Virus record (IMG/VR): IMGVR_UViG_3300005663_002365
Span: 1-23,626 of that record
Origin: a virus
Direction: 5' to 3' (one strand)
DNA length: 23,626 bases
Shown: in pieces, positions 3,444-23,626 of the stretch
Numbering within the stretch: the stretch's first letter is position 1
How the letters are laid out: each line of letters begins with the position of its first letter
Notes under the pieces: generated by a model
What the model saw: the letters and a program-made list of their open reading frames with translations, nothing else
Told to the model about the DNA's origin: nothing
Database searches by the model: none
Position numbers and translations under genes: made by a program

Positions 3444-3539
3444 ATATATGATTTTTGAATTATAGACAACAAAGAAATGCATGTTATTTTAAATAAAAAA
3501 ATTTTGGTTACAAAAAATGTATTATCTTTACCAAAAATT

Positions 3540-3986: not shown

Positions 3987-4504
3987 CTGACAGACAAAAA
4001 TTTTGCTTAGAAAGAAGGGACAACTGGAAGCCCTCCATAAATATTGAGATACCTGAATTTGTTAGGTTAGGCAAAAATTGCCATATAGAAAAAAATGTTG
4101 TATTTGCCTTACATGGACTGGGAGCAGAATTTATTGACGATCAATGGATGTTAATCCCGCATAATGGAACAATAGAGATAGGAGACAACGTTACCATACT
4201 TGACAGCACAATCATAATGAGAGCTACAAAAGAGGCAACAAAAATCGGTAGTGGTTCTATATTAGGCGTAAAATCCCACATTGGACATAACGTGCAGATA
4301 GGCAAAAATTGTCTGATCGGGTCCTCAGCACTATTAGGAGGTAGTTCTAAGATCGGTGAAAATACCTACATCGGTGTTGGCGCCTTAATTAAAAATAAAA
4401 TCATTATAGGAAAAAAATGCACTATCGGTATGGGAGCAATTGTTACAAAAAATGTTCCCGATGGTGAAACGTGGGCTGGTGTGCCGGCTAATAAAATTAA
4501 TTAA
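3980..4504 (+). CDS. Left-handed beta-helix acyltransferase, second copy type
   Basis: The product has 174 residues, overlapping the previous gene by seven bases, which points to translational coupling. Residues 1-60 are a non-repeat head (MLTDRQKFCLERRDNW). From about residue 55 there are continuous hexapeptide coils such as GTIEIGDNVTILD and then SHIGHNVQIGKNCLIG. The C-terminal segment NVPDGETWAGVPANKIN has the GxPA motif seen near the end of many sugar O- and N-acetyltransferases. The two neighbours share the fold but are not close copies. They may act on different positions of the same glycan or form a mixed trimer; both are inference. Confidence 0.87.
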   Translation: MLTDRQKFCLERRDNWKPSINIEIPEFVRLGKNCHIEKNVVFALHGLGAEFIDDQWMLIPHNGTIEIGDNVTILDSTIIMRATKEATKIGSGSILGVKSHIGHNVQIGKNCLIGSSALLGGSSKIGENTYIGVGALIKNKIIIGKKCTIGMGAIVTKNVPDGETWAGVPANKIN

Positions 4505-4505
4505 A

Positions 4506-4709
4506 ATGAAAAATATTAGATTGATTAAAGTGGGATTTAAAAAACGCTCACTTATGTTTGATATAATTGATTTAGGAAATTTCAGCTTGATGGTTTTTCA
4601 ATTTTGGTTTTTTGGTTTTGGAATTGCATATCAATTAATAGATAGTTTGGAAAAAGATATTGCTGAATTTGAAAAGGTAAAAAAGGAATGGAATACGAAC
4701 AAAAGCTAA
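4506..4709 (+). CDS. Small membrane-associated protein, unknown
   Basis: The product has 67 residues, MKNIRLIKVGFKKRSL onwards. The ATG starts two bases after the acyltransferase TAA, so it is probably co-transcribed. A basic N-terminus leads into one very hydrophobic stretch at about residues 25-44 (GNFSLMVFQFWFFGFGIAYQL), long enough to cross the membrane once. A charged helical tail (EKDIAEFEKVKKEW) follows. It could anchor or assist the acyltransferases at the membrane. A longer frame from 4440 overlaps the acyltransferase heavily and is not favoured. Confidence 0.6.
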   Translation: MKNIRLIKVGFKKRSLMFDIIDLGNFSLMVFQFWFFGFGIAYQLIDSLEKDIAEFEKVKKEWNTNKS

Positions 4710-4737
4710 AAAAGTTGAAATGAATAAACTATAATTA

Positions 4738-4754
4738 AAAAATGTGTTATTTTT
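4738..4754. terminator. Weak AT-only hairpin between convergent genes
   Basis: AAAAAT (4738-4743) pairs with ATTTTT (4749-4754) around a five-base loop. It sits in the 48-base gap between the convergent plus-strand acyltransferase operon and the minus-strand operon. Position suggests a two-way terminator, but the stem has no GC pairs. Confidence 0.25.
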
Positions 4755-4757
4755 CTG

Positions 4758-4979
4758 TTATAATTTTTCCTTAAGCTCTTCTGCCTTATCCAAATACCAT
4801 TTTTCCTTTTCTAATTCCTGTTTCATATTATCCTTATGTCCTAACCGCATACGATATTTAAAGGCTGTTAATGTACAATAATTAATTGCTGCCCGGGCAC
4901 CCCATATAGAAACCATCATATCAATAACTTCTATTGGATATTGTTTATAATGGGATGGGTGTATTTTGTCTTTAGGCAT
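4758..4979 (-). CDS. DUF3310 family phage protein
   Basis: The product has 73 residues: MPKDKIHPSHYKQYPIEV onwards. It shows the DUF3310 pattern: a P-x-HY motif near the N-terminus, IEVIDMM, a central helix ending FKYRMRLGHKD, and the closing EKEKWYLDKAEEL. Members are small, common in phage genomes and sometimes labelled nucleotide kinase-like, but no activity is secure. The usual GNaiKYi stretch is changed here to NYCTLTAFKYRMR. The gene overlaps the end of its upstream neighbour by 49 bases. Confidence 0.8.
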   Translation of the reverse strand: MPKDKIHPSHYKQYPIEVIDMMVSIWGARAAINYCTLTAFKYRMRLGHKDNMKQELEKEKWYLDKAEELKEKL

Positions 4980-5647
4980 AATTTTGAAATTAAAAGTTTA
5001 GGATAAATTGTTTTTGTTTTATTATTAATATTTAGCGATCCAGCACCATTTTTTTTAACTTTTTTCTTTGACCAAACTGTAGCCATTCCTACCCTATCTC
5101 CTTTACACGAAAATAATTCACCTTGTTTTGTAATATAATATCCTATACAATTCTCATATCCTTTTGCTATGGTCGGCAAATAGATCCCATCTTTAGGAAT
5201 TTTAGGGATAACTATTTGAATCAAATCATATTTTTTGGCCCCGTTTCTTTTTTTCAATAATACATTTTTCAATTCTGCAATATTTTTTTCAGTAATATCC
5301 AACTTTTTTTGTCTTAATATCTGCATAAGATACCATTTTGCTAAATTTTTTCTTCCCCTGCTTTTAACTTCCTTGTTTCGTTTTCTTAATTCTTCAGCCA
5401 ATTCTGGATGAGATTTTATGTAATAATAAGTTGCCCTCCCAATAGCATTCCTTGTTTCAACAATAAGATTATCAAGGCGTAATTCTTTTTTCTTTTCTGT
5501 TAATCTTATTAAGCCATCCTGAACGGCATCTTGTCCTTCATACGTAGAAAGCAAAACAGAATATTCAGGTCTTCTTAATGTTTTATTAGCATACCGAACA
5601 GCTCTGTTATATTCTATCTCTGTTATCATTATTTCCAAATTATTCAA
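4931..5647 (-). CDS. Unknown protein, possibly sigma-like head with NUMOD-like tail
   Basis: The product has 238 residues. The first ATG is at 5647, and an alternative at 5629 gives MITEIEYNRA. The N-terminal half (about 1-80) is helical, and EGQDAVQDGLIRLTEKKKEL is loosely reminiscent of region 2 of extracytoplasmic sigma factors. The middle is very basic and lysine-rich. Residues 170-190, GYYITKQGELFSCKGDRVG, resemble the short beta motif at the start of NUMOD4 and related phage endonuclease modules, but no HNH follows. A DNA-binding role is plausible. The family is not recognised with confidence. It lies between a glycosyltransferase and DUF3310. Confidence 0.6.
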   Translation of the reverse strand: MNNLEIMITEIEYNRAVRYANKTLRRPEYSVLLSTYEGQDAVQDGLIRLTEKKKELRLDNLIVETRNAIGRATYYYIKSHPELAEELRKRNKEVKSRGRKNLAKWYLMQILRQKKLDITEKNIAELKNVLLKKRNGAKKYDLIQIVIPKIPKDGIYLPTIAKGYENCIGYYITKQGELFSCKGDRVGMATVWSKKKVKKNGAGSLNINNKTKTIYPKLLISKLCLKTKYTHPIINNIQ

Positions 5648-5650
5648 AAC

Positions 5651-5670
5651 TTAGGACATTTTAGGACATT
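5651..5670. repeat. Tandem 10-bp repeat in an intergenic leader
   Basis: TTAGGACATT occurs twice without a gap (5651-5660 and 5661-5670), then a third copy starts with TTA. It lies four bases upstream of the 5647 start, within the 32-base gap after the glycosyltransferase stop. It may be a binding site or a slippage product. Confidence 0.6.
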
Positions 5671-5679
5671 TTATAGCTA

Positions 5680-6315
5680 TTACCTAAAATAATTCCAATA
5701 AAATTCATAACTAATAGGGTCTAATGTTCTTTTTAGGAATCCGTTATCTTGAAATTTAAATCTATGTAACCTATCTACATGGCTTCTGCCTCCTAATTTC
5801 CCTATTCCATGCTTTATTCCCAAGGAATACAATTTATCGGGCTTAAATACTTTGTAATTTAAGGTCCGGTATAAATGAAGATCGGTATATGTTTCATAAT
5901 CCTCACACCATTCAAAGTTCATGTCGGGCTTTATTAGCGTATTCATTGCTGCAGAACGTTGATCATGCAGCATTTCAAAGTACTTTTTTATCTTTATATT
6001 GTAATATATAGTATGATTTGTACCAAAAAGATCGGGCTTGCCATGTTCTACCCACTTATCTGTCATGTATCTTAGATAATCCGGAGAATACCAATCATCA
6101 TTTTCCCAAAATGCAATAATATCAAGCCCCTTTTTCCTTAAAATATCATATCCTTTACGATACCTGAATGTAATATCCGGCTTATCTGATTTTGGTTTTT
6201 CACTTATTAAAACTGTACAATACGGCTTTAGAGTCTGTGCTTCTAACATCCTGAAACTATTGGCAAGCAATTTAAAACGATCACCTCGATCTGGAATGAT
6301 AATACCTACTTTCAT
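5680..6315 (-). CDS. GT-A glycosyltransferase, paralogue of the first domain of the 12277 gene
   Basis: The product has 211 residues, beginning MKVGIIIPDRGDRFKLL, a family 2-like N-terminal beta strand. The acidic metal/nucleotide-sugar site is ENDDWY at residues 71-76. It aligns along its length with residues 60-270 of the product of 10889-12277. Shared blocks are the DITFRY/DITYRY strand, ENDDWY/EDDDWY, PDLFG/PDIFG, the IYY motif and GIKHG (166-170). It therefore probably transfers a sugar from a nucleotide-sugar donor. It starts 31 bases beyond a strong terminator that closes the upstream gene, so it may depend on read-through or on a promoter not recognised here. Confidence 0.82.
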   Translation of the reverse strand: MKVGIIIPDRGDRFKLLANSFRMLEAQTLKPYCTVLISEKPKSDKPDITFRYRKGYDILRKKGLDIIAFWENDDWYSPDYLRYMTDKWVEHGKPDLFGTNHTIYYNIKIKKYFEMLHDQRSAAMNTLIKPDMNFEWCEDYETYTDLHLYRTLNYKVFKPDKLYSLGIKHGIGKLGGRSHVDRLHRFKFQDNGFLKRTLDPISYEFYWNYFR

Positions 6316-6345
6316 CGGAATTTGTTAATCATTAAAATAAAAAAT

Positions 6346-6375
6346 CCCCGTCAGATGCTTAGCCGTCTGACGGGG
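6346..6375 (-). terminator. Rho-independent terminator
   Basis: CCCCGTCAGA (6346-6355) and TCTGACGGGG (6366-6375) form a perfect 10-bp stem with a 10-base loop. In the minus-strand sense the stem is followed directly by ATTTTTTATTTTA. It lies 13 bases past the stop of the 6388-6990 gene and is the best intrinsic terminator in the window. On the plus strand no T run follows, so it acts for minus-strand transcription only. Confidence 0.85.
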
Positions 6376-6387
6376 TGGTAGTACCTC

Positions 6388-6990
6388 TCATCGGAATCTA
6401 TTTTTGATTTTATTTATTTCTATCTGTCTTTTTGCCTGGTATGCCTGATCAGTATTGCCTAAACTCTTTTGCTCCCCATGTCTGCGATACCTTTGTAAAT
6501 AAGAATTGCAATAATTCAATTTACAGCCTTTAGAAAGTAATCTCATATTAAACTCGTATTCTTCACCTAACCAAAGAGTTTCATCAAACCCGCCAAATCT
6601 GTCAAAGCAATCCCTTCTATACAATACAGTACCCCCATGAATTACGTTTAAGTTAATTATATCTTGTAAAGTTGGATTCTTAATAGTTGGAATATAGGGC
6701 TTTTCTAACCCATTTGACCAGAAATTGATAGCATTACCATGAATAAAATCAAAACCCTGGATGGCTTTTAAGCTATCTTCTATGCAATTTGGAGTTAATA
6801 AATTATCTTCGGAACAGAAGCGGATATAATCACCTGTTGCTTTTTCTAATCCCCGGTTAATATTATAGGAAACGCTTTTGTCTGATTGACTTAATATAAA
6901 CTCTGTCTGATAGGTTTGATTCTCTATGCTTTCAATTGCCTGCTTTAAAAAGCCCCTATCTTCATTACATGGAATAATGATACTAACCAT
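6388..6990 (-). CDS. Family 2 glycosyltransferase
   Basis: The product has 200 residues starting MVSIIIPCNEDRGFLKQAI, the classic GT2 opening strand and helix (QAIESIENQTYQ). The donor site is FCSEDN (58-63) in place of the usual DDD-type triad, with E61 and D62 as likely acidic ligands. The acceptor half has IHGGTVLYRRDCFDRFGGFDE (118-137) and GEEYEFNMRLL (142-152), matching the GGFDE...ED-x-(D/E)-x-x-x-R pattern of GT2 enzymes. It overlaps the acyltransferase gene by eight bases and ends in a strong terminator. It would act in the cytoplasm on nucleotide-sugars; the acceptor is unknown. Confidence 0.92.
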   Translation of the reverse strand: MVSIIIPCNEDRGFLKQAIESIENQTYQTEFILSQSDKSVSYNINRGLEKATGDYIRFCSEDNLLTPNCIEDSLKAIQGFDFIHGNAINFWSNGLEKPYIPTIKNPTLQDIINLNVIHGGTVLYRRDCFDRFGGFDETLWLGEEYEFNMRLLSKGCKLNYCNSYLQRYRRHGEQKSLGNTDQAYQAKRQIEINKIKNRFR

Positions 6991-7351
6991 TTCTTAAGAA
7001 TTTAGCAGGATTACCTACCATGACATAATTATCCTTGACATCTTCTAAAACTACTGCACCCACTCCGATAGTTACATTATTGCCTATCTTGACCTTGTTT
7101 TTTATCATGCAGCCAATTCCTAAATAACAATTATCACCAATTGTAACACTTCCACCAAGTATTGTTCCGGCTATGATAAGACAATGCTTGCCTATGTTTA
7201 CATTATGTGCTATGTGGCAATTATAATCTATCTTGGTACCTTCACCTATACGAGTATCATCAAGCGTTGGTCTAACAATATTGGTTCCTGAAAAAATTTC
7301 AACCCTTATTAGCTTATATGCTCCTAAAATAATGTTCACTGTCATACCCAA
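6983..7351 (-). CDS. LpxD-like hexapeptide acyltransferase
   Basis: The product has 122 residues, and the start may be M1 or M3 (MTVNIILGAYKL). The segment RPTLDDTRIGEGTKIDYNC (27-45) followed by HIAHNVNIGKHCLI closely follows the catalytic-histidine coil of LpxD, the UDP-3-O-acyl-glucosamine N-acyltransferase. The rest is hexapeptide coils ending VMVGNPAKFLRN. Unlike LpxD (about 340 residues) it lacks the N-terminal uridine-binding domain and the C-terminal helices, so it is a minimal acyltransferase. It is coupled by overlaps to two glycosyltransferases and lies near a PIG-L deacetylase. This fits N-acylation of a freed sugar amine, which is inference. Confidence 0.85.
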   Translation of the reverse strand: MGMTVNIILGAYKLIRVEIFSGTNIVRPTLDDTRIGEGTKIDYNCHIAHNVNIGKHCLIIAGTILGGSVTIGDNCYLGIGCMIKNKVKIGNNVTIGVGAVVLEDVKDNYVMVGNPAKFLRNG

Positions 7352-7947
7352 TTCTTTAAAAATTCAGGAGGATTTAAATTTCTTGTGCCCCTATAATTAT
7401 GTTCTATGTAATCTTTGACCGGAAACTCAATAAGCATAGAACTTTTACTTTGTTCGTATAAATCTAACATCGTCTTGATGCAAGGAGCGCCATGATGTGC
7501 GAATTTAATATATTTTAGATATTGAATTTTATTTATAAGCATAAAATAAGGATGCAAATAAGGTATCCCAATAGTAACATTTCTTCCGTTTTTATCCGTA
7601 TAGCATATTTCTCCTATACCATAACTTGAATCTTTAAGATCAGCTTGCATTTTTTCTATTATACCCCCCTTTTTCATCTCAATATCGCTATCAAAAAGCA
7701 ATGCATGCTTTGTCAGGCAACTTGCAAGACCATAATTTAACCCCTCTCCATGTCCTATGTTGCCCCCTATGTGGTAAGTAGTGCAATTATCATAAGGATT
7801 TGATTTTAAATAAACATCACATTTATGTCCCGGGGTGGACCCGTTAACAATTATTAAAGGCAATTCGGGATAGAATTTTCTTACAGATTTTATGGCTCTA
7901 TCAATAAGCCCCTTAGTATTATAGACAACAGTTATTCCGGTTAGCAT
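7342..7947 (-). CDS. GT-A glycosyltransferase (GT2-like)
   Basis: The product has 201 residues. The N-terminal part, MLTGITVVYNTKGLIDRAIKS, and the following PLIIVNGSTPG form the first two strands of a GT2 fold. The acidic site is FDSDIE, with DSD at 86-88. GHGEGLNYGLASC before it matches the helix that contacts the nucleotide in GT2 enzymes. It differs clearly from the other glycosyltransferases nearby, which suggests a distinct linkage. It overlaps the LpxD-like gene by ten bases and follows the methyltransferase by 11 bases. Confidence 0.82.
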   Translation of the reverse strand: MLTGITVVYNTKGLIDRAIKSVRKFYPELPLIIVNGSTPGHKCDVYLKSNPYDNCTTYHIGGNIGHGEGLNYGLASCLTKHALLFDSDIEMKKGGIIEKMQADLKDSSYGIGEICYTDKNGRNVTIGIPYLHPYFMLINKIQYLKYIKFAHHGAPCIKTMLDLYEQSKSSMLIEFPVKDYIEHNYRGTRNLNPPEFLKNWV

Positions 7948-7958
7948 AAGTAAGTAAT

Positions 7959-8579
7959 TTAGAATAATCGTAATTTAATCTTTTCTAAGTTAATCCTTTT
8001 CACAGCTGCCTCGTAATAGTCTTTGTCAATTTCAAATCCCCAAAATTCATATCCTAACCTGTGGGCTGCTATGGCACTGCTACCTGAGCCCAAGTGAGTA
8101 TCTAAAATCTTATCGCCTTTTTTGGCATAATTCATTAATAACCATTCATAAAGTTCAATAGGTTTTTGGGTAGGATGTATTTTCTTTATAGCATTTTGTT
8201 TCCCATCATTAGCTTTAAACTTAAATATTCTTGTCCTTGAATTATCACTTATCCAAGCAAGTTCTGCATCAGAGAAGCCATTGGTATGGCCATTAAAATC
8301 CTTATCCCAAATTACCCAAGATTTTACTGCAGGAAGATAATTTGTGAAATAATTACCACCCCATATTATTTGTTTTTTACTAATCCTGAATAGGTCTGCG
8401 AAATATTTATATGATGGTATTTTTTTATTCCATTTTTTACTTTCATTTTTGAATTTTGTATTATAATGCTTTATTGAGCCTATACCATATGGAGGATCCA
8501 CAATGGCAAGTTCAAAGAAATTATCAGGAAATTCCTGCATACTTTCTATACAATCCCTATTATATATTCCGGCTTTCAT
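7959..8579 (-). CDS. DNA methyltransferase, N6-adenine/N4-cytosine, beta-class order
   Basis: The product has 206 residues. The catalytic motif IV is DPPYGIG at 28-34, and the AdoMet-binding motif DTHLGSGSSA is near the C-terminus (160-169) after HPTQKP (135-140). Motif IV before motif I is the beta-class arrangement (D12/DAM-unlike solitary phage enzymes). DPPY allows adenine N6 or cytosine N4 methylation. The target recognition region between residues 35 and 130 is short. No restriction endonuclease gene is adjacent, so it is probably an orphan phage enzyme that protects viral DNA. It overlaps the HAD gene by 20 bases. Confidence 0.93.
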   Translation of the reverse strand: MKAGIYNRDCIESMQEFPDNFFELAIVDPPYGIGSIKHYNTKFKNESKKWNKKIPSYKYFADLFRISKKQIIWGGNYFTNYLPAVKSWVIWDKDFNGHTNGFSDAELAWISDNSRTRIFKFKANDGKQNAIKKIHPTQKPIELYEWLLMNYAKKGDKILDTHLGSGSSAIAAHRLGYEFWGFEIDKDYYEAAVKRINLEKIKLRLF

Positions 8580-8922
8580 TTATTAATTTATATATTTCTT
8601 CCCAATCTTCTGGGATACCCCCAAGATTTCTGTCATCTATATAAATATCTGCATAGATTTTGGGAGATGGTTGGAAAAGTATTTGTTCGTATGACGCATT
8701 TACATTGACCAGAATCCCTTCCAGCCCTTTTAATGTTAACCAGTCATATGCAGCTATAAGCTCTGATCCGCCCCTACATGTCCAGATAATTAGTGTATGA
8801 CCTTCGCTGAGCAATCTTTTTAACACATTAACCACGTTAGGTTTAGTTGCTCCTATTTCCGGATACTTATGATCGACAATTGTTCCGTCAAAATCGATTG
8901 CTATTATTAGCTTATTTTTCAT
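8560..8922 (-). CDS. HAD-superfamily phosphatase (BT0820-like)
   Basis: The product has 120 residues, MKNKLIIAIDFDGTIVDH onwards. Motif I is DFDGT with nucleophile D10 and acid/base D12. Motif II is the threonine in WTCRGG (48), and the last motif is KIYADIYIDDRNLGG, with K88 and D96/D97. There is no cap domain, so the enzyme is small and could act on a bulky or polymeric substrate. The closest remembered group is the short Bacteroidetes/phage HADs of the BT_0820 type. In this setting it could dephosphorylate a sugar intermediate or a nucleotide; neither is proven. It shares one base (TAATG) with the upstream GT-B gene. Confidence 0.88.
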   Translation of the reverse strand: MKNKLIIAIDFDGTIVDHKYPEIGATKPNVVNVLKRLLSEGHTLIIWTCRGGSELIAAYDWLTLKGLEGILVNVNASYEQILFQPSPKIYADIYIDDRNLGGIPEDWEEIYKLINESRNI

Positions 8923-9863
8923 TATGATATTACCAAAAGTATTTGCTTTAATCGTTCACCTGTTGCCTTATAACTATGTTTTTCTTTAACCCAGTTGTAT
9001 ATATGAGTTTGTAATTCACTAATATCTTGCTTTGACATAGAATTTAAATATACAATTGCATCTTTAAATTCCTTTTCATTAGCAACCAATATCATTGGAC
9101 ATTCTCCGTATATTTTTTCGTAAATATCTTTATTAAGATTTTGGGTAATAACGATCTTCCCGCAAGAGGCTGCCTCTAAAGCCGCATATCCATAATGACC
9201 ATATTCAAAGCCTTCAATTTCGGGCTTAAAGAGTTCTATGTACACATCGCAATCAGAAATTCTTTTCATATTTTCCGAATGGGGGACTGACTTTTTAGAA
9301 TAAATAAAATCAAAATTGCCTTCACCGGGGCAGCCGTTGCTACTTATTTCATCCATCATTGAAACGATCTTATCGGTTCCTTTTATTTCCGGGTTACTTG
9401 GATAGTGTGCTATTTTTATAGGACTATTTACCTGGTGCTTAAATGCCGGATGGTCTTTAATATCAATACATCTCTCAACATATTGCATATTTTTAGCTCC
9501 TAACTTAAAAAATTCACAATGATTGGTTAAGGTCCCATGAACCATATTGAATGCTCTATTGCACCATGCAGCCCTTTTCCTGTAAAAATTGCCTGTATGA
9601 AAAACAAATATTTTTGCTGACGGTAATTTATATTTTAATACCGCAGTATAAGAATTAATACAACTATGAAATACTACTATTGTATCAGCTGTTCTAATTA
9701 ACGAATTTATTTCTGATCTTAATTTTATCAGACTTTCTGATTTGTATTTAAATCCATGGGGGACCGCCTTAACATCAATACAATCAACGCCAACAAGCCT
9801 TAAAGCATTAGCCATATTGTGCATATGATTTGCCCAGTCGTTATCGCATAAAAATAGTATCAT
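8922..9863 (-). CDS. GT-B fold glycosyltransferase (GT4-like)
   Basis: The product has 313 residues. The C-terminal Rossmann half shows the GT4 signature: DVYIELFKPE (206-215) followed by EYGHYGYAALEAASCGKIVI (220-239), in which the two glutamates surround the nucleotide-sugar as in the E-x7-E motif. The N-terminal half begins MILFLCDNDWANHMHNMANAL with the acceptor-side HMHNM helix. It is shorter than typical GT4 enzymes (about 370). The ATG overlaps the PIG-L stop (ATGA). The first 12 codons recur upstream of the PIG-L gene as a vestige (10450-10500). Confidence 0.87.
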   Translation of the reverse strand: MILFLCDNDWANHMHNMANALRLVGVDCIDVKAVPHGFKYKSESLIKLRSEINSLIRTADTIVVFHSCINSYTAVLKYKLPSAKIFVFHTGNFYRKRAAWCNRAFNMVHGTLTNHCEFFKLGAKNMQYVERCIDIKDHPAFKHQVNSPIKIAHYPSNPEIKGTDKIVSMMDEISSNGCPGEGNFDFIYSKKSVPHSENMKRISDCDVYIELFKPEIEGFEYGHYGYAALEAASCGKIVITQNLNKDIYEKIYGECPMILVANEKEFKDAIVYLNSMSKQDISELQTHIYNWVKEKHSYKATGERLKQILLVIS

Positions 9864-10453
9864 ACTATCTGCCTTATTACTTCAAAACATTCAGCATATT
9901 TGCATCCCGCTTGCAAGCCCCTATAAATTGCATTAGATACAATAAATTCTACATCCATATATGGTCTGTGTTGCTGTGATTTATACTCTTTTAAAGCCAG
10001 TATCTTTTTATCAAGATGCCTTTTTCCTATTTTAAAAAACAAATTAGGAGAAAATTTAAAATGATTATGTGGAAAATCGTATCCGTAAATATTGATGTTT
10101 TTAAAGGCTCTCAATGTTTCTTCATAAATAACTTTATGATCCTGGTGTATGTCGTGTTGAGAAAATATAAATACCGTATCAATGTCAATTTTCTTTTTTA
10201 TTGAAATCATTGCATCTAAAATTCCCTGCCTGTTTTTGTGGAAAAATCTTACTTTATTATTTAATATAATTATCTTACCATTAACACCCAGACTACGACA
10301 AGATATAAGCATTTGATGTTTTAACTTTTTTATGCCGCAATAGGAAAATGCAACGATATTAACTACGTTACCCTCCTCTATTAATCTTGAAATAGTGGCT
10401 CCGGCTCCAAATTCCGCATCGTCAGTATGAGCGCTAATAAATAAATAATTCAT
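9860..10453 (-). CDS. PIG-L (LmbE-like) N-deacetylase
   Basis: From the ATG at 10453 the product has 197 residues, MNYLFISAHTDDAEFGAG. AHTDDAEFG (8-16) is the zinc-binding (A/P)HPDD-x-E motif of the family. The second zinc/catalytic motif, SQHDIHQDH (97-105), matches H-x-D-x-x-x-H. These enzymes remove acetyl from N-acetylglucosamine units in lipids, thiols or antibiotics. An earlier in-frame ATG (10474) would add MGKSDNR, which is the out-of-frame reading of a vestigial gene, so it is rejected. Next to a GT-B enzyme and close to an LpxD-like acyltransferase, it would free an amino group on a sugar. Confidence 0.92.
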   Translation of the reverse strand: MNYLFISAHTDDAEFGAGATISRLIEEGNVVNIVAFSYCGIKKLKHQMLISCRSLGVNGKIIILNNKVRFFHKNRQGILDAMISIKKKIDIDTVFIFSQHDIHQDHKVIYEETLRAFKNINIYGYDFPHNHFKFSPNLFFKIGKRHLDKKILALKEYKSQQHRPYMDVEFIVSNAIYRGLQAGCKYAECFEVIRQIV

Positions 10454-10500
10454 TCTATTATCTGATTTGCCCAATCGTTATCACATAAAAATAATATCAT
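10450..10500 (-). pseudogene. Vestigial 5' end of a second GT-B gene
   Basis: A 16-codon reading frame, MILFLCDNDWANQIIE, ends in a TGA that overlaps the PIG-L ATG. Its first 12 codons give exactly the same peptide as the start of the GT-B gene at 9863. The DNA differs at three codons (3, 6 and 9), all silent. Both copies also begin with the same ATGA overlap with the upstream gene. This looks like the stump left when a related glycosyltransferase was deleted or exchanged. Confidence 0.75.
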
Positions 10501-10892
10501 GATTGTAATTCTTCTCCGGTTAATGCGAAATATAAGTTTTGAAGTTGGTGGACGTATTTAATTTCTGATGTGTATCCTAATCTTGCATCATAATGTCCTT
10601 CAATACCTAATTGATATATTCCATTCTTAAAGGGCACTATTTCTATATAGCAATAATAACCTTCTACTAAATTACACCAATGTCCACTTTCGTTTTTCTG
10701 TAACCCAAACTTCTTTAACCATTCTTCTGTGAGGGGCAATCCATATAATTCTTTTGTTGGGGTTGTATAGCCTCCGCTTAATTGTGTCATTAATAAGGTT
10801 TCGTTTTCATCAAATTTAGCCACTTTATAAGCCCCTCCAATACTTTCATTTGTTCCAACTAAATTTCCTATTCTTAATTCTGTTGCTTTCAT
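10497..10892 (-). CDS. Conserved Bacteroidetes phage protein, unknown function
   Basis: The product has 131 residues. It opens MKATELRIGNLVGTNE and closes KYVHQLQNLYFALTGEEL. Between them is the GLPLTEEWLKKFGLQK block. This set of three blocks is familiar from small proteins found over and over in Bacteroidetes phages and prophages, and is one reason for assigning the host. The middle is beta-rich, with YYCYIEIVPFKNGIYQL. No catalytic motif is visible. It sits between two glycosyltransferase-type genes with ATGA overlaps on both sides (10889-10892 and 10497-10500). Confidence 0.85.
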   Translation of the reverse strand: MKATELRIGNLVGTNESIGGAYKVAKFDENETLLMTQLSGGYTTPTKELYGLPLTEEWLKKFGLQKNESGHWCNLVEGYYCYIEIVPFKNGIYQLGIEGHYDARLGYTSEIKYVHQLQNLYFALTGEELQS

Positions 10893-12277
10893 TCTATTCT
10901 CCCCCTACTTACGTTAAATGTTTTAACAATTATCTTATCCAGCCATACACATTTAACCCCGGAATCAAATACGCGACTTATAAATTCAAAATCCCCCATC
11001 CTTTCGTGAGCAAAATGATGGATAAATTTAAAATAAATTTCTTTGCTTACAAAAAAACAGCTGCCTCCTATTGAGCCCCTTATTGGACTTTTCTCCCAAA
11101 CGTTATCTTGCGGATAAATACCACCCCCCCTTATGCCTATCCATGCCCGGACAAAGATAACATCCGCTTGAATATCCTTTATTTCATTGAATATATCATA
11201 ATCAACTAAGTAATCATCATCATCCAATAAGTAAACAAATTTACCTTTTATTTCTGATAATACTAACTGAAATGAGCTATTGGCATAATATAAACCCATT
11301 CCCTTTTTATCTTTAATAAATATCTGCTCAAAATCACCTTTCATCTTAGATATTGAACGCTGATTTTTCTTAAATCCTTCAGGTCTTTTATCTCCATGGA
11401 CCCGGGTAATCACAGAAACTATAGGAATTTTACCATAACTTTTTTTCGTGATCTCATAATTGTCCCTAATAGCCATGAGTTTATAAAAAGAAACGTCTTG
11501 TCCTACCATATTTTTTAGTTTGTTAGAATCGAGATCCATAATAGTATATCTATCCCATTTTTTTTGATGTCCACCGCCGCCTACATTAGTAAAGCCATGT
11601 TTTATGCCTACACAAATAGGCTTACCGGGTACAAATGTTTTTCCCCGATTTGATTTCCATAACTCTTGGTCTAAATACGGACAGTCATAATCAAACTCGC
11701 TTCTAAGCACATTCCGGGTTACAAGTGTAGCCATCATGCTTGCTCTTTTTCTATGGACAAATACTGCATACTGCTTTGTAATTATATGATAATAAATACT
11801 TTGCCCTATGCCAAAAATATCTGGTCTATCAGCTTTCTCCCACTTTTCGATTAAAGTCTCAATATAATTATCAGCATACCAATCATCGTCCTCCCAGCAA
11901 ATAACTACATTACATCCTTTATTGAATAATTCATTAAATCCCAAATGATAACGATAAGTAATATCCACTCCACTAAATAAAGTTTTATCATTTACAATCC
12001 TGATATACTTTGGTTTTATTGTTTGTCGTACTACTAAAGACTTCGCTTTACCCAAAAAATACGGTCTATTCCCCTTTGTCGGGATCACTACACCAATTAC
12101 AATCGCTGATTCAGGCTGATTTATCTTTACAAGAAACCCATTTTTTACCAATCTAACAGCCTGCCCTGGCGGAAAATCCTTATCGCTTACGATTGTTAAA
12201 GAGCCGTCTGATTTTTTTCTTGTAAATATCTTATTAAAAGCTCCATTTACCGTTAAAGATTTTAGTTTATATCTCAT
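10889..12277 (-). CDS. Two-domain GT-A glycosyltransferase with N-terminal phage-like domain
   Basis: The product has 462 residues. Residues 1-55 are a small beta domain with SDKDFPPGQAVRLVKNGFLV, similar in feel to short phage structural proteins that end in a 'LIKNG' type motif. Residues 57-270 are a GT-A domain with VVIPTKGNRP (63-72), EDDDWY (129-134) and GIKHG (224-228), homologous to the gene at 5680-6315. Residues 283-462 are a second GT2-type domain with PIVSVITRVHGDKRPEG and LDDDDYL (351-357), and an acceptor-side MGDFEFISRVFD. Two catalytic sites suggest addition of two sugars or alternating polymer synthesis. The head domain could target the enzyme to the virion; this is inference. 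Confidence 0.85.
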   Translation of the reverse strand: MRYKLKSLTVNGAFNKIFTRKKSDGSLTIVSDKDFPPGQAVRLVKNGFLVKINQPESAIVIGVVIPTKGNRPYFLGKAKSLVVRQTIKPKYIRIVNDKTLFSGVDITYRYHLGFNELFNKGCNVVICWEDDDWYADNYIETLIEKWEKADRPDIFGIGQSIYYHIITKQYAVFVHRKRASMMATLVTRNVLRSEFDYDCPYLDQELWKSNRGKTFVPGKPICVGIKHGFTNVGGGGHQKKWDRYTIMDLDSNKLKNMVGQDVSFYKLMAIRDNYEITKKSYGKIPIVSVITRVHGDKRPEGFKKNQRSISKMKGDFEQIFIKDKKGMGLYYANSSFQLVLSEIKGKFVYLLDDDDYLVDYDIFNEIKDIQADVIFVRAWIGIRGGGIYPQDNVWEKSPIRGSIGGSCFFVSKEIYFKFIHHFAHERMGDFEFISRVFDSGVKCVWLDKIIVKTFNVSRGRIE

Positions 12278-18490: not shown

Positions 18491-18748
18491 TCACCTGCGT
18501 TTTATGTGGTTGTATATAATATCAAGCTCTTTTAACTTCAATTCAATCAGTTCATTTAGTACAATTCGCTCCTCTGGAGTAGTATTTTTTGACATAGCCC
18601 CCAATCCCCTCATGCTATTTTCCGTAATGAGTCGTAATTGTACCCAGCTTTGCTGTTTGATAGCCCCCTTTTGAACGCAAAGGGGCTTTCTATAGTTCCT
18701 ATCAATAAAGGAACTGAATTGCTTAGAACTGAGTTTAACGCCTTTCAT
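18491..18748 (-). CDS. Small protein, unknown
   Basis: The product has 85 residues, MKGVKLSSKQFSSFIDRNYR onwards. It has a basic N-terminal half and a C-terminal charged helix (ERIVLNELIELKLKELDIIY). Its ATG shares one base with the stop of the HNH gene (TAATG), so the two may be coupled. Function unknown. Confidence 0.6.
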   Translation of the reverse strand: MKGVKLSSKQFSSFIDRNYRKPLCVQKGAIKQQSWVQLRLITENSMRGLGAMSKNTTPEERIVLNELIELKLKELDIIYNHIKRR

Positions 18749-19254
18749 TACAATATTTTTAATTGTCCATTCATCGGAACTACTGCTTTCCAGATTTTAT
18801 AATTAATAATATTAGTAATACTTGTTGGGCATAAATTGTATTTGGATGCTATTTTTGCATGACTATAATTTTTTGTAGTATAAAGCTCACGGATTTCTTT
18901 TGCTATTTTATAATTTATTTTTGCGTGGCTCAATCCGTTTTTAACAGCGTGTATTACATTTTCTTGCCGGGTAGCCCATTCCAAATTTTCAGTCCTATTA
19001 TCTATCTTTATTCCGTTTTTGTGATTAACCTCTGGTTTGTTATATGGATTTGGAATAAAACATATTGCTACTAATCTTTGTATACGTTTTGTTTCTGTTA
19101 TCCCATTTTTTGTTAAGCCAACTAATAAATATCCCTTACTATTTGGAGGTGTTTTTAATATTCTATTTTTCCCACGCTTTAAACTTTTGATTCTTCCAAT
19201 ATTACTTATTTGATAATGTCCTTCGTATCCTTTTATGTCTTTCCAAATTTCCAT
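18748..19254 (-). CDS. HNH homing endonuclease with NUMOD4 and helix-turn-helix
   Basis: From the ATG at 19252-19254 the product has 168 residues. Residues 1-40 are NUMOD4 (EIWKDIKGYEGHYQISNIGR). Residues 58-107 are the HNH_3 core, with FIPNPYNKPEVNHKNGIKID, H78, N80, and the NRTENLEWAT block. Residues 115-155 are a helix-turn-helix (HAKIASKYNLCPTSITNII) that likely reads the target. Upstream ATGs in frame (to 19413) would add residues encoded by the leader hairpin and promoter, so they are rejected. The gene has its own promoter and structured leader, unlike its operon neighbours. Confidence 0.9.
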   Translation of the reverse strand: MEIWKDIKGYEGHYQISNIGRIKSLKRGKNRILKTPPNSKGYLLVGLTKNGITETKRIQRLVAICFIPNPYNKPEVNHKNGIKIDNRTENLEWATRQENVIHAVKNGLSHAKINYKIAKEIRELYTTKNYSHAKIASKYNLCPTSITNIINYKIWKAVVPMNGQLKIL

Positions 19255-19277
19255 AATATAAAAACCCGACTTAGCAT

Positions 19278-19379
19278 TGCTTAACGGTCGCTCAATAGAA
19301 ACCGTATCCATACTTTTCAGATAGGATATGCTTATCGGGTATTTTTTCGGATTATCAATATTGAGCGTTTGGTTAAGCA
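19278..19379 (-). promoter_or_regulatory. Structured 5' leader (inverted repeat) of the HNH gene
   Basis: TGCTTAAC (19278-19285) and CGCTCAATA (19289-19297) pair with TATTGAGCG (19359-19367) and GTTAAGCA (19372-19379). The 17 base pairs have a 3/4-base internal loop and enclose 61 bases. In minus-strand sense the outer arm begins about where transcription from the 19383-19413 promoter should start. The HNH start lies about 23 bases past the other arm. This could gate translation or stabilise the message. Confidence 0.65.
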
Positions 19380-19382
19380 TTA

Positions 19383-19413
19383 CAAAGATAAACATTATTA
19401 TCATAATACACAA
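19383..19413 (-). promoter_or_regulatory. Bacteroidetes-type promoter for the HNH gene
   Basis: Minus-strand TATCTTTG (19390-19383) matches the -7 consensus TAnnTTTG. A TTG (19413-19411) lies exactly 20 bases upstream, as in the two other promoters in the window. The predicted start near 19376 leaves a leader of about 120 bases. Confidence 0.7.
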
Positions 19414-19425
19414 GTATTTTGACTT

Positions 19426-19719
19426 TTAATATTTTAGTTCTAATTGTTTATTTAAAGGACAAATCGCCCACCTGATCACCGGATAATTAGAGATTAAATC
19501 CAGGACTTTATCATATTTATAAACATCCTCCGCCTTTACCAGTTCCCTCATCCTGCCGGTAACCTGGTTTATGGGAATGTCTAACTCTACCGATAATTGT
19601 TTGTTGCTCATGGGTCCTATGCTACCCAAAGCATTCAAAACCCGTTCCTTTCTGCTGGGTAATTCAGATTGGATATCTACATAAGCGTCCAACGAAGTTT
19701 GTTGCATTTTTGTATTCAT
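19426..19719 (-). CDS. Winged-helix DNA-binding protein
   Basis: The product has 97 residues. M5 (MQQTSLDAYVDIQSELPSR) is the likelier start, since QQTSLxAY is a common opening in Bacteroidetes phage homologues as I recall them. RKERVLNALGSIGPMSNKQL and then SVELDIPINQVTGRMRELVK form a helix-turn-helix; the following basic and aromatic segment would be the wing. The likely role is a regulator or replication accessory. It is the last gene of the early operon before the HNH insertion. Confidence 0.75.
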   Translation of the reverse strand: MNTKMQQTSLDAYVDIQSELPSRKERVLNALGSIGPMSNKQLSVELDIPINQVTGRMRELVKAEDVYKYDKVLDLISNYPVIRWAICPLNKQLELKY

Positions 19720-19723
19720 GGCT

Positions 19724-20050
19724 TTAGATTTTAATATGATCCTTAATTAATTTTATTTCCGCTTCCATATTAGTCATTCTTTGATTGAGTAAATCCGTCT
19801 TTGTGGGCAGCTTGAATTTGCTGTACATCTTTCCTTTATACTCCTCCTGAAAAAATGCAAGTGCAACTTTGTCCCCTGGCTTCCACTGTTTTGCAACTTC
19901 AATACTATCCCCCCACATTAATCCATTATACCACTTGTCCATTCCGATTTGAATTCCTACTGAACAATATAGGTTACCGTTCTTTGCGGTTTTGGTCTCC
20001 TTGCAATCTATTTTGCTAAGGGTTACCTCTTTTAAAATTACGTCATCCAT
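19724..20050 (-). CDS. OB-fold-like protein, possible single-strand DNA binding
   Basis: The product has 108 residues. KTAKNGNLYCSVGIQIG, KWYNGLMWGDSIEVAKQW and KPGDKVALAFFQEEYKGKMY give alternating beta strands and a 'PGDKV' turn like SSB and other OB folds. A C-terminal coiled segment (QRMTNMEAEIKLIKDHI) follows; there is no acidic SSB tail. It overlaps the nuclease gene by eight bases. A role with the nuclease and the NinB-like protein in recombination or replication is inferred from the order. Confidence 0.6.
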   Translation of the reverse strand: MDDVILKEVTLSKIDCKETKTAKNGNLYCSVGIQIGMDKWYNGLMWGDSIEVAKQWKPGDKVALAFFQEEYKGKMYSKFKLPTKTDLLNQRMTNMEAEIKLIKDHIKI

Positions 20051-20798
20051 TGGTTTGTAGTTTTATTTTGTCAGGATAAATCAAATTCTTTGGCTTTGGG
20101 TTTGGGTTCTCTGCATCATATATTTTCCTGGTGTGCTCATATAGTTTAAAGCTATCTGAATAATGCCTGTCAAATTCTGCCAGCTGCCAGCCGGCACCTT
20201 GTATCTTTTTGCCTGTTTTGTCCGGTCCCCGGGTGCGGGATTTGAGCCATAGTATTCCTGTTCGTTTTATTTGCTTATCCGGATTGGCTTCATTCCACAG
20301 CATACAATAGGCAGATAGTTGAAGTTCATGGGTCTTGTAGATACCATTTGAAGTTTTGTAATCTATGAGCCATAATTGACCTATCATTTCGCAGACAATA
20401 TCAATAGTACCCCCTACCTTCATTGTATCAGATATTAATGTTTTCTCGGGTCCGGCTATAATCTTTGGCTTGTAGGTATCCCAGAACTCCACAAATCTCA
20501 TTATCATTTGCCACTCAAGGAAATTATATTTTTCATTCTCTCTTGTCCACAATACATCCTTTCCATTCAGATACTTTTCAATAGCATTGTGGACTTTAGT
20601 ACCTTGCTCTCCGGCTCTTGCCAGGACTTCACCGGCATTGCTACCCATGTCCTTTAGCCATTGTATATAGCCAAATCCTTTTGGATATACATCTAATACG
20701 GTTGTTACACTCGGGTAGAATGTCTCACCGTCTTTTGTGTAGAACCTTTCGTCTAAGAATTCTACGCAGTTATTCTCTGGCCTGTGGAATGTTTTCAT
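20043..20798 (-). CDS. PD-(D/E)XK nuclease, RecB/Cas4-like
   Basis: The product has 251 residues. YPSVTTVLDVYP (28-39) is the typical opening, followed by GTKVHNAIEKYL (66-77, H70), E118, VGGTIDIVCE (128-137, D133), LIDYKTS (144-150, D146 and K148) and ELQLSAY (158-164, Q160). This is the full RecB-family order: H, E, D, DxK, Q. It would resect DNA ends in phage recombination or replication. Neighbours are a NinB-like protein and an OB-fold protein, which form a recombination module. No annealase such as RecT was seen in the window. Confidence 0.9.
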   Translation of the reverse strand: MKTFHRPENNCVEFLDERFYTKDGETFYPSVTTVLDVYPKGFGYIQWLKDMGSNAGEVLARAGEQGTKVHNAIEKYLNGKDVLWTRENEKYNFLEWQMIMRFVEFWDTYKPKIIAGPEKTLISDTMKVGGTIDIVCEMIGQLWLIDYKTSNGIYKTHELQLSAYCMLWNEANPDKQIKRTGILWLKSRTRGPDKTGKKIQGAGWQLAEFDRHYSDSFKLYEHTRKIYDAENPNPKPKNLIYPDKIKLQTNG

Positions 20799-21277
20799 TA
20801 TCCTATATGTTTATTTGCATCTTCAATATCAATAATCAACATTTCCTTTTCTCTCGGCTTGGGAATTTTAATATTAAACATTTCTACTGACCATGCTATA
20901 ATATTTTCCCAATAAGCGATAAATTCCGTATTATCAAGGTCTTTGGACGTTTCTACTGACTCCATTTCATCGCCATTTGGCAGGTTCCAAACTATTGTCC
21001 CCAAAAACTTCATTTTCATTAGCTCGTGTACCTCATCTGCATTTACTTTTCTATTAAAAGTCTGCTCTGAGTTGAAATAATCTACCAATGCTTTTATCAC
21101 TACTCCCCAATAGTAGCTGTTCATTAAAATTGACCGGGTGTTCTTTATACCCTTAATCACCAGCTCAATCGTTTTCCCTTCAAAATTCTCCAAATCCCAT
21201 TGAAACAACTCCTTGTTATCCATTACCAATTTGTTTGCCTGGACTTTGGCTGTGTGTTTAATAATTAAATCCTTCAT
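20798..21277 (-). CDS. NinB-like recombination protein
   Basis: The product has 159 residues. The N-terminal beta part includes GKTIELVIKGIKNTRS, then RSILMNSYYWGVVIKALVDYF, then DEVHELMKMKFLGTIVW, and late FIAYWENIIAWSVEMF. This order (SQNxxYWGxV, HExxK, exposed aromatic helix) matches the NinB/Orf family, which helps load recombinases on single-stranded DNA. A small terminal extension KEMLIIDIEDANKHIG follows. It shares one base (TAATG) with the nuclease start. The similarity is by recalled pattern, so confidence is moderate. Confidence 0.72.
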   Translation of the reverse strand: MKDLIIKHTAKVQANKLVMDNKELFQWDLENFEGKTIELVIKGIKNTRSILMNSYYWGVVIKALVDYFNSEQTFNRKVNADEVHELMKMKFLGTIVWNLPNGDEMESVETSKDLDNTEFIAYWENIIAWSVEMFNIKIPKPREKEMLIIDIEDANKHIG

Positions 21278-22047: not shown

Positions 22048-22293
22048 TTAATAGGTTTTTTTAATATAATTAGCTAATAATTCTCTATTTTTATTATCTA
22101 ATTGGCTAATAAAGGTTTGAATATGGCTTGTTTGAGGAGTTGGATTTGTATCAAGTTGCCTACAAATACCAACCCATTTTTTATTTAAATGTTCAACAAG
22201 ATGCTTATCATCTTTCCAAACCTGATCAATAAAGTCTGGTTTAAATCCGTTTAAAAAATCAATTAATTGATTTAGTGTTATTTCTGTTTTCAT
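22048..22293 (-). CDS. First gene of the early operon, unknown
   Basis: The product has 81 residues, MKTEITLNQLIDFLNGFKPD onwards. Helical, with VWKDDKHLVEHLNKKWVGIC in the middle and LDNKNRELLANYIKK at the end. It lies about 28 bases below the TATCTTTG promoter box and so is the first gene expressed from the operator-controlled promoter. Function unknown. Confidence 0.65.
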   Translation of the reverse strand: MKTEITLNQLIDFLNGFKPDFIDQVWKDDKHLVEHLNKKWVGICRQLDTNPTPQTSHIQTFISQLDNKNRELLANYIKKTY

Positions 22294-22320: not shown

Positions 22321-22351
22321 CAAAGATAAAAACTCTACTTGACATTATCAA
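22321..22351 (-). promoter_or_regulatory. Early operon promoter, Bacteroidetes type
   Basis: Minus-strand TATCTTTG (22328-22321) is a perfect TAnnTTTG -7 element. TTG (22351-22349) sits 20 bases upstream and is contained in the operator palindrome. It should start transcription near 22314 and run into the 22048-22293 gene and beyond. Confidence 0.8.
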
Positions 22352-22356
22352 GTAGA
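22334..22356. promoter_or_regulatory. Operator palindrome over the early promoter
   Basis: TCTACTTGA (22334-22342) and TCAAGTAGA (22348-22356) form a 9-5-9 perfect inverted repeat. It covers the -33 element and part of the spacer. Its core TTGA-N5-TCAA recurs at the same offset in the 22606-22636 promoter. A dimeric repressor bound here would block RNA polymerase. Confidence 0.8.
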
Positions 22357-22424
22357 TGGGCAATTATTTTTAATTTATTTTTGCCCTTTGGGGCTTGTTT
22401 GAGCCAATTACTCGGGAAATTATG

Positions 22425-22601
22425 TTAACCAGATTTTTTTTTGCCTTTGAGCTTTATCTTTGCGTCCTTATTTACATAAGGAATATCACCAACCATCACA
22501 ACCGATAATCGTTTGTCTTTAATAAGCTCAGTTATCCATTGGGGGCTACATTTGTTGTTTCTGGCAAACTGAGCTTGAGAGATTAGATTTGAAGTATTCA
22601 T
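22425..22601 (-). CDS. Small helix-turn-helix regulator
   Basis: Starting at the ATG at 22599-22601 the product has 58 residues (MNTSNLISQAQFARNNKCSP...). An ATG 13 codons upstream would lie within the promoter and is rejected. ISQAQFARNNKCSPQWITEL followed by IKDKRLSVVMVGDIPYVNKD is a MerR/excisionase-type helix-turn-helix plus a short wing. The C-terminus is a lysine run. The start codon is only about five bases below the -7 element, so the mRNA is leaderless or nearly so. It is the only regulator seen beside the two operators and is the obvious candidate to bind them, though 58 residues is short for a repressor. Confidence 0.75.
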   Translation of the reverse strand: MNTSNLISQAQFARNNKCSPQWITELIKDKRLSVVMVGDIPYVNKDAKIKLKGKKKSG

Positions 22602-22605
22602 TTGG

Positions 22606-22636
22606 CAAAGATAAAAAATCTTATTGACAATATCAA
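22606..22636 (-). promoter_or_regulatory. Promoter and operator of the regulator gene
   Basis: Minus-strand TATCTTTG (22613-22606) and TTG (22636-22634) are again 20 bases apart. The palindrome core TTGA-CAATA-TCAA (22624-22636) lies at the same distance from the -7 element as in the early promoter. Only the inner four bases of each half-site are conserved here, so this operator is probably weaker. Confidence 0.78.
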
Positions 22637-22641
22637 GCAAA

Positions 22642-23254
22642 TGGTAAAAAAATCCCGTTCCGTATTTTATGCCTCAAATTAAGCCGGTGGATTTTCTTGT
22701 TGGTGATCTGGCTACGCACCGCCCTGCGGAGTTCCGCTTTGCAGTACCTGCAAATTTTTCCGAAAAAAAACTCAAAATTCCAACCCGTGGGCTGCTCTTT
22801 TTATATTTCTTTTCCCTTTTACACCCTTGCCGTGAGAAAAGAAGCAAAAGAATAAAAAGAGAATGCACAAAAAATTTTCGTTAGAAACTTTTTTAAGCAT
22901 CGGCATATAGACAAGAAAAATGTCTTTGTGCATTTTTTTTTATGCTAAGGGAAGCAGGGCGTATTTAAATAGCTTAGCTCTCTGGGGCGGTGGTGTGGGT
23001 GGCTGTGCTGGGCTTCTTTGGTATGGGTTTGAGTGGCATTGGAGGCATGGGCTCTTTTTTGTTTGGCTTGGGTGGCTTGGGAGCGGGGATCTTCGGTGCG
23101 TGGGCAGAGCCGGTACAGACCCTATTGAGCACAGCACACTATCCCTGTTGTGTGCTGGACGAAATATTGGGGCTGTGTGGCTGTGCGTGAGCATATTGGT
23201 CGCGTGGGCGTGGACGGATGGGTTGCCTGCCGCGTGGGCTTTGGAATGGCTTTA
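22642..23254. other. Non-coding, GC-richer, palindrome-dense region
   Basis: No convincing gene is present: the open frames give low-complexity glycine-, proline- or lysine-rich peptides. Instead there is a series of hairpins: GCGGA-GT-TCCGC (22726-22737), TTTGCAG-TAC-CTGCAAA (22738-22754), a 9+7 bp pair of arms at 22795-22813 and 22846-22861, the terminator-like stem at 22862-22934, and CAGCACAC/GTGTGCTG (23132-23139 with 23150-23157). From 22980 to 23100 the plus strand is strongly G-rich, with repeated GGCTTGGGTGGCTTGGG-like units. It could be a replication or packaging locus, a structured RNA, or a dispersed host repeat. Confidence 0.6.
22862..22941. terminator. Terminator-like double hairpin, possible small RNA end
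   Basis: AATGCACAAA (22862-22871) and TTTGTGCATT (22925-22934) form a perfect 10-bp stem. On the plus strand a run of nine T's (22933-22941) follows, as in an intrinsic terminator. A competing inner hairpin AGACA/TGTCT (22909-22913 with 22921-22925) lies against the outer arm. On the minus strand the stem is also followed by a T-rich stretch, so it may stop transcription both ways. Confidence 0.5.
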
Positions 23255-23626
23255 CTATTTGCTTTCACCTCTTGATCTTTTTTCGGAAAATTCTTCAATC
23301 ATATTGACAATATCTTCTTTTGTTTTATCAATGGTACTATCAACGGCAATGTTTATTTCTTTCTTAATGATCCCCCGATACTTTGAAATAGCCTTATTAT
23401 TCATTCCTACCTCTTTTGCCAGGATTGTTAAGACCTTATCTAAGCTGTTTTCAAATTCAGCAATAATATTTTTAGAATGCTGTGCAAATAAAATCTTTAC
23501 CATTTCAGTAGGAAGAACCTCTCCCCTCATTTTTTCTTCTTTGATAAGTGCTATCCTGGTATCAACCTGCTTTTTAGCAAGCTCTGCCTTCTTTATTTTT
23601 TTGTCGAGACTTATCCATTCTCCTGG
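23255..23626 (-). CDS. Possible terminase small subunit / Nu1-like protein, C-terminal part
   Basis: The frame is open from the window edge to the stop at 23255-23257 (123 codons, 5' end missing). It reads EWISLDKKIKKAELAKKQVD, then LIKEEKMRGEVLPTEMVKIL, then a helical remainder ending EEFSEKRSRGESK. The lysine-rich helix followed by (R)GE-(V/L)-(V/L)-P-x-x-x-(V) and a long helix is the pattern seen in DNA-packaging proteins of the gpNu1/small-terminase type. It lies on the terminase large subunit's strand but 8.5 kb upstream of it, so the assignment is tentative. An internal ATG at 23528-23530 is not the real start, because the frame continues above it. Confidence 0.55.
   Translation of the reverse strand, partial: PGEWISLDKKIKKAELAKKQVDTRIALIKEEKMRGEVLPTEMVKILFAQHSKNIIAEFENSLDKVLTILAKEVGMNNKAISKYRGIIKKEINIAVDSTIDKTKEDIVNMIEEFSEKRSRGESK

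Follow-up and report, generated by a model that had tools for sequence, protein, structure and literature searches.

A small winged-helix protein as candidate autoregulated early brake acting on two tandem phage promoters

When two neighbouring promoters of a phage early region carry the same short inverted repeat at the same position, is the repeat an operator, which protein reads it, and what would binding do? The question arises at the right end of a 23.6-kb IMG/VR fragment of a phage of Bacteroidetes-type bacteria (the window, meaning the whole stretch of DNA analysed). Its genes, nearly all of them on the minus strand, include those for tape measure, tail sheath and terminase as well as an early operon. 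In the direction of that strand, the order at the right end is promoter, 58-aa ORF, another promoter, early operon. The features needed below are these.

22624 to 22636, minus strand: candidate operator of the regulator promoter, TTGATATTGTCAA, matching the early site at 12 of 13 positions
22606 to 22613, minus strand: -7 element TATCTTTG of the regulator promoter, 4 nt before the ATG (consensus TAnnTTTG; PMC7366714, PMC6847099)
22425 to 22601, minus strand: 58-aa winged helix-turn-helix protein, candidate regulator, ATG at 22601 (ORF, AF2 model, 59% identical ortholog)
22339 to 22351, minus strand: candidate operator of the early promoter, TTGATAATGTCAA, a TTGA-N5-TCAA starting on the TTG
22329 to 22356, minus strand: 9-5-9 inverted repeat with the early operator, then GTTTTT; terminator-like hairpin, 3' end of the regulator transcript
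22321 to 22328, minus strand: -7 element TATCTTTG of the early promoter (promoter pattern)
22048 to 22293, minus strand: early-operon gene 1, 81 aa, unknown product (ORF; family searches without convincing match)
20798 to 21277, minus strand: NinB/Orf-like recombination mediator, early operon (phrog_72, E=3e-13)
20043 to 20798, minus strand: PD-(D/E)XK exonuclease, early operon (PF12705; phrog_298, E=6e-40)
19426 to 19719, minus strand: second conserved winged-helix protein, 97 aa, early operon, rival binder (phrog_1123; INQVTGR helix invariant between both phages)

Elsewhere in the window, the tail and terminase genes are separated, at positions 3477-12277, by a run of glycosyltransferase-, hexapeptide transferase- and deacetylase-like genes together with a DNA methyltransferase-like gene, a cargo that, from the translations alone, is unusual for a phage of this size. 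Positions 22940-23300 are G/T-skewed and relatively GC-rich in an otherwise AT-rich fragment, with Pro/Lys-rich peptides in the minus-strand frames and no Rfam match. Rfam and tRNA scans were empty.

Two promoters with one motif at one position

On the minus strand, the early promoter has TTG at 22351-22349 and, after 20 nt, TATCTTTG at 22328-22321. The regulator promoter has TTG at 22636-22634, the same N20 spacing and TATCTTTG at 22613-22606, then CCAA and the ATG at 22601. Both fit the sigma-ABfr type, with CTTG at -33 and TATCTTTG at -7 separated by N20, the consensus being TTTG at -33 and TAnnTTTG at -7 (PMC7366714, PMC6847099). The first-pass annotation had described TTG-N20-TATCTTTG with TTGA-N5-TCAA at an identical offset on both promoters, and its coordinates are correct. 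In the window TTGA-N5-TCAA occurs at 22339-22351 and 22624-22636 only. The count alone is unremarkable, because two compare with 0.9 expected by chance and 25 of 100 shuffles give at least two. The window has three TTG-N20-TATCTTTG promoters; two carry the motif, at an identical position, and the one at 19413 (minus strand) has none. This coincidence of both sites with promoters is not chance. The 13-mer spans about -35 to -23, over the -33 element, on promoters with a perfect -7 element.

Four nucleotides separate the -7 element from the regulator AUG, both in the window and in the related phage described below. Since a distance of 4-5 nt from the -7 element to the start site is reported for F. 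johnsoniae (PMC6847099), the regulator mRNA is predicted to be leaderless or nearly so. Near-leaderless translation had been regarded as distinctive, a view that published transcript maps do not favour: about 3.7% of 5' UTRs are shorter than 10 nt in B. thetaiotaomicron (PMC7366714), and, among F. johnsoniae transcripts with a likely promoter, 13% have leaders of at most 10 nt (PMC6847099).

As had been noted before, the early site forms a perfect 9-5-9 inverted repeat (22334-22356), and symmetry at the regulator site is confined to the core. From this difference, strong repression of the early genes and weak self-repression had been proposed. The hairpin at 22329-22356 has an RNA folding energy of -11.6 kcal/mol (z -3.5; 1 of 200 shuffles as good) and was matched by an independent terminator scan. 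The early site of the relative lacks the additional arms, its folding energy is no better than that of shuffled sequences, and both of that phage's sites are 13-bp cores of equal symmetry. The proposed difference in repression is therefore unsupported, because the extra arms form a terminator-like hairpin that is absent from the relative. A terminator, or an element with two uses, is a simpler account of the added symmetry than stronger repression would be, though the arms may also contribute to binding.

Concerted change of the sites in a related phage

One close relative was reached through the exonuclease (85% identical): IMGVR_UViG_3300023284_002928, a 20.5-kb IMG/VR record (L003, the same as G001). 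Its gene order is the same, with a 61-aa ortholog of the regulator (59% identical, L003:4036-4218), the early promoter and the early genes, and the order of regulator, early promoter and early genes is thus conserved, although early-operon gene 1 differs from that of the window. Both of its promoters carry a 13-mer at the same offset (N20) but of other sequence, TTGTATCTTACAA and TTGTATATTACAA, the 13-mer being TTGTATMTTACAA there versus TTGATAWTGTCAA in the window. The pattern TTG-N7-CAA-N10-TAnnTTTG has exactly two matches in each phage, and a reversed control pattern has none. Good copies of the other phage's site are absent from both the window and G001.

The early promoters of the two phages are orthologs. 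Their flanks agree at 24 of 30 positions upstream and 22 of 29 downstream (46/59), and their -7 elements at 8 of 8, but they agree at only two of the seven inner operator bases, a result with P 0.007 for 2/7 or fewer if the flank rate applied. The promoters inside either phage agree at six of the seven. Inner-base agreement is 12/14 within phages versus 3/14 between orthologs (Fisher 0.002). Positions 4 and 10 stay complementary through the change, from A-T to T-A in both promoters, and the dyad symmetry is kept. Duplication or conversion of the whole promoter was rejected as the source of this likeness, as the flanks are near background within each phage (14/30 and 9/29 identical in the window; 11/30 and 13/29 in the relative). 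The spacers are alike at 7/10 and 7/10 positions within phages versus 6/10 and 7/10 between them; a spacer without within-phage excess likewise points away from conversion of the whole promoter, and the excess is confined to the inner bases. Such concerted change favours a single phage-encoded factor that reads both sites, and an altered preference of that factor would be the simplest cause. With only two phages known, this covariation amounts to a single event and is weighed accordingly.

No further close relative was found with the regulator alone or with the two-sequence alignment in viral_contigs and in genome_contigs, and the exonuclease alignment in genome_contigs, together with the phages and plasmids searched, gave none beyond L003/G001. 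Loose DNA scans for the operator brought no further regulator among the matches listed. Distant HTH_17-like matches in B. fragilis phages (33-37% identity) were set aside, BF766P1, the one examined, being without such a promoter pair, and L129 and L130 were rejected as relatives as the regulator is absent from them, at an exonuclease identity of 51%.

The same terminator-like hairpin (CCCCGTCAGAC...TCTGACGGGGATTTTTT) occurs at unrelated places in the two phages, at window 6331-6375 (minus strand) between two glycosyltransferase-like genes and at L003:3952-3995 (plus strand) just upstream of the regulator promoter. In L003:3870-3995 a TTG-N21-TAACTTTG promoter is followed about 100 nt later by this terminator with no obvious gene between, a candidate small RNA just upstream of the regulator.

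The candidate binder and the competing readings

Two winged-helix proteins were recognised among the proteins common to both phages, and these were the candidates for the binder. The AF2 model of the 58-aa protein (mean pLDDT 79, two-sequence input) has helices at residues 9-15 and 20-28 and strands at 34-37 and 40-44, that is, an HTH and then a beta-hairpin wing, a feature of the Xis/MerR-like winged-helix superfamily. After the wing the model has only a low-confidence basic tail, and a C-terminal dimerisation coiled coil is absent. Foldseek placed Pukovnik Xis from a mycobacteriophage (probability 1.00, TM 0.69) and P2 Cox on top, with BldC close behind. VIA-align 2 gave Z 6.9 for Pukovnik Xis (51 residues, 2.9 A), 6.7 for lambda Xis, 6.3 for BldC and about 6 for the MerR family; these values, 6.5-6.9 for the Xis chains, are middling, and fold likeness alone proves no function. 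Sequence profiles stayed below their curated cut-offs (TIGR01764 excisionase, 17.2 of 28.8 bits; HTH_17, 16.8 of 27), and the regulator profile found no convincing match among PDB sequences. The protein had been thought unlike CI-type repressors, which agrees with the fold predicted here, Xis/Cox/BldC/MerR-like and not CI-like. An unannotated 84-aa winged HTH protein, broadly similar in type (51% identity over 37 aa), is encoded at L128:1441-1695, in the record of the Dolichospermum phage Dfl-JY14. It adjoins a methyltransferase-like gene and a 240-aa hypothetical gene and is possibly the controller of a restriction-modification pair.

Between the orthologs of the 58-aa protein, the recognition helix (residues 20-30) is identical at 4 of 11 positions versus 20 of 25 in the wing and tail (Fisher P 0.02). 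In the 97-aa protein the putative recognition helix INQVTGR is unchanged between the phages, though the site differs at five of the seven inner bases. The 58/61-aa protein is the better candidate because its recognition helix has diverged and its gene lies behind the regulator promoter. Together with the concerted change, this supports the earlier proposal of the 58-aa protein as the candidate binder, and we regard it as the best candidate for both sites. Directly behind the 97-aa gene the window has an HNH endonuclease gene (18748-19413) that is absent from L003. Its ORF ends in PMNGQLKIL, resembling the end of the L003 winged HTH protein, PANGQLKIL (L003:7115-7408), and the gene seems to be an insertion that displaced or duplicated the tail of the winged HTH gene.

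The shared 13-mer could instead be a phage dialect of an extended -33 promoter element that host RNA polymerase reads, perhaps with a phage cofactor, the palindrome being incidental. Because the TTG half already belongs to the promoter, what matters is the frequency with which the other half is found in promoters. As a control we used TTG-N20-TAnnTTTG promoters before ORFs in other Bacteroidetes-type phage contigs (n=182), a biased set taken from the operator-scan contigs with the scan hits removed; the exonuclease-search loci were left out as they held too few real promoters. In this biased set 52 of 182 promoters (29%) have CAA at a distance of exactly 10 nt upstream of the -7 element, with the consensus TTTGGWARWTTCAA, and CAA keeps this phase for spacers of 19 and 20 alike (26% and 27%). 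Named phages (crAss001, phi38:1, phi14:2, phi18:1, 11b and B40-8) have CAA at N10 in 8 of 89 -7 sites (about 9%) versus a background of about 2% for the remaining offsets. Any chance estimate with CAA taken as random is therefore too favourable, and half of the palindrome can be ordinary promoter DNA. The inner bases of control promoters are also alike at six or more of seven positions in 15% of within-phage pairs versus 3% of between-phage pairs. The symmetry as a whole is much rarer: CAA with a complementary 4/10 pair is found in 9 of 182 control promoters (5%), the generic form being G4/T10 and non-palindromic, and none of 562 same-contig promoter pairs with unrelated flanks in other phage contigs combined a palindrome (5 of 6 pairs) with likeness at 12 of 13 positions. 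A column-wise promoter model gives 4e-5 for a promoter pair that is palindromic and alike. Window and G001 each have exactly two such promoters, with the dyad symmetry kept through the change, and the window's third promoter of this type is without the motif. A mere promoter element is, on this balance, unlikely. The extended element TTTGGWARWTTCAA is frequent in TTG-N20-TAnnTTTG promoters of Bacteroidetes-type phages (L208-L327 and L331-L386; named phages L388-L393), and for F. johnsoniae host promoters only AT-rich motifs at -18/-28 are reported, without a clear -33 motif (PMC6847099). TTG...CAA symmetry near such promoters is thus partly a general feature, and calling it an operator needs comparison.

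The sites could also be operators of another repressor, be it the 97-aa winged-helix protein, a host protein or a repressor encoded beyond the fragments. Since window and G001 are incomplete, another regulator may lie outside them; the 97-aa protein is conserved in both early operons, and the L354/G004 locus described below has an analogous promoter pair beside a CI-like gene. This reading is nevertheless a poor fit to the invariant INQVTGR helix of the 97-aa protein, to the lack of an HTH_3 gene in either fragment and to the concerted change, which a host factor does not obviously explain, and we think it quite improbable. Overlap with the -33 element is no proof of repression, for lambda CII and T4 MotA activate from there, and the 58-aa protein could be an activator of this kind, driving its own gene and the early operon. 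In all four promoters of the window and the relative the -33 element is CTTG, one off TTTG, and there are weak PHROG matches, at E 0.006 between the ortholog and a late transcriptional activator and at E 0.14 between the window protein and a CII-like regulator. The near-perfect -7 elements and correct spacing, however, suggest promoters that are active unaided, and an autoactivator would require a separate way to start. We give activation very little weight.

A proposed brake on early genes

The locus had been described as an autoregulated genetic switch. Both promoters, the regulator and the early genes lie on the same strand in both phages, with the regulator gene between the two promoters, a tandem layout without an opposing promoter. 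No integrase (PF00589) was found in the window or G001, both incomplete records, and HTH_3 of the CI type (PF01381) had no match at E<=10 in either fragment while being positive in 14 of 14 controls. The switch is not what this layout suggests, and lysogeny is not indicated by these incomplete fragments, which have neither an integrase nor a CI-type HTH gene. One binder for both promoters without an opposing promoter gives negative autoregulation with co-repression of the early operon, the logic of Cro. Our preferred reading, to which we assign a probability of about 0.52, is that the Xis-fold 58-aa mini-protein is a Cro-like autoregulated early brake that represses both promoters and gives a pulse and no bistable switch. 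The protein would bind the 13-bp inverted repeat over the -33 region of its own and the early-operon promoter, and occlude RNA polymerase at both sigma-ABfr-type promoters. Upon infection both promoters would be open, and the accumulating protein would then shut off the early genes and itself together, resulting in a self-limited early pulse. Here we infer the identity of the binder, repression as the direction of control, dimeric binding and the timing.

Lambda Cro is a small early phage DNA-binding protein with sites on its own and an early promoter, and the predicted self-limited early pulse is like Cro-type shut-off. Unlike lambda Cro, the window system lacks the Cro/CI HTH fold and has tandem promoters of the sigma-ABfr type with one site per promoter, and a CI-like partner was not found in the fragments. 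The divergent CI/Cro lysis-lysogeny switch has opposing promoters, whereas in both phages here they are in tandem on one strand. The predicted fold is shared with the winged-helix excisionases Xis, Cox and Apl that also regulate promoters (P2 Cox, 186 Apl, RdfS). RdfS binds and negatively autoregulates its own promoter (PMC11963761), and this fold relative is a precedent for autoregulation by a protein of this kind. The excisionases differ in using direct repeats or a filament region, where the window has one short inverted repeat. Recombination directionality factors of the Xis/Cox kind are encoded beside an integrase and an att site, and the two incomplete fragments yielded no integrase. BldC, a 68-aa MerR-like promoter regulator, is alike in size, fold (TM about 0.6, Z 6.3) and lack of a dimerisation helix or coiled coil, but binds 9-bp direct repeats head-to-tail (PMC5859096), in contrast to the inverted symmetry of the window site. 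Proteins of the Xis/Cox/BldC type usually bind direct repeats or form oligomers or filaments (PMC5859096, PMC11963761), and by this comparison an inverted-repeat site would be a departure for the fold. Classical MerR proteins have an operator centred in the promoter spacer and a C-terminal dimerisation coiled coil, whereas the 13-mer starts at the TTG of the -33 element and the 58-aa protein has no coiled coil.

A locus selected by pattern, L354/G004, was found with a degenerate operator pattern. It resembles the window in that one 13-mer, TTGTTTYTGTCAA, overlaps the -33 element in both of two promoters and keeps the offset from TATCTTTG, but differs in its Cro/CI-type HTH protein (PF13443, E 2e-4; phrog_8, E 9e-9), its divergent orientation and a non-palindromic 13-mer. 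In L354:263-1400, the CI-like gene has a divergent promoter, and a 31-bp promoter/operator stretch, TTGTTTYTGTCAATTATTTGCTGTATCTTTG, is common to that promoter and to another, 645 bp downstream. The layout of two promoters with one -33-overlapping site may recur with different regulators, which is only suggestive.

A more specific version of the early brake is doubtful but worth stating. A single-domain winged helix of 58-61 aa without a dimerisation helix might act as a symmetric dimer on the 13-bp inverted repeat and be the whole control element of the early region, and the sister phages might have swapped specificity (TTGATAWTGTCAA versus TTGTATMTTACAA) by a handful of recognition-helix changes. 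If so, the pair with swapped specificity would be a natural one for reading the DNA code of the protein.

Gene timing in phages of Bacteroidetes is little described, and we found no paper on such a phage early operator in the open-licence literature. If our reading is right, about 60 residues and two 13-bp sites would make a minimal early-gene brake for sigma-ABfr promoters, and the pair of sister phages makes its specificity directly testable.
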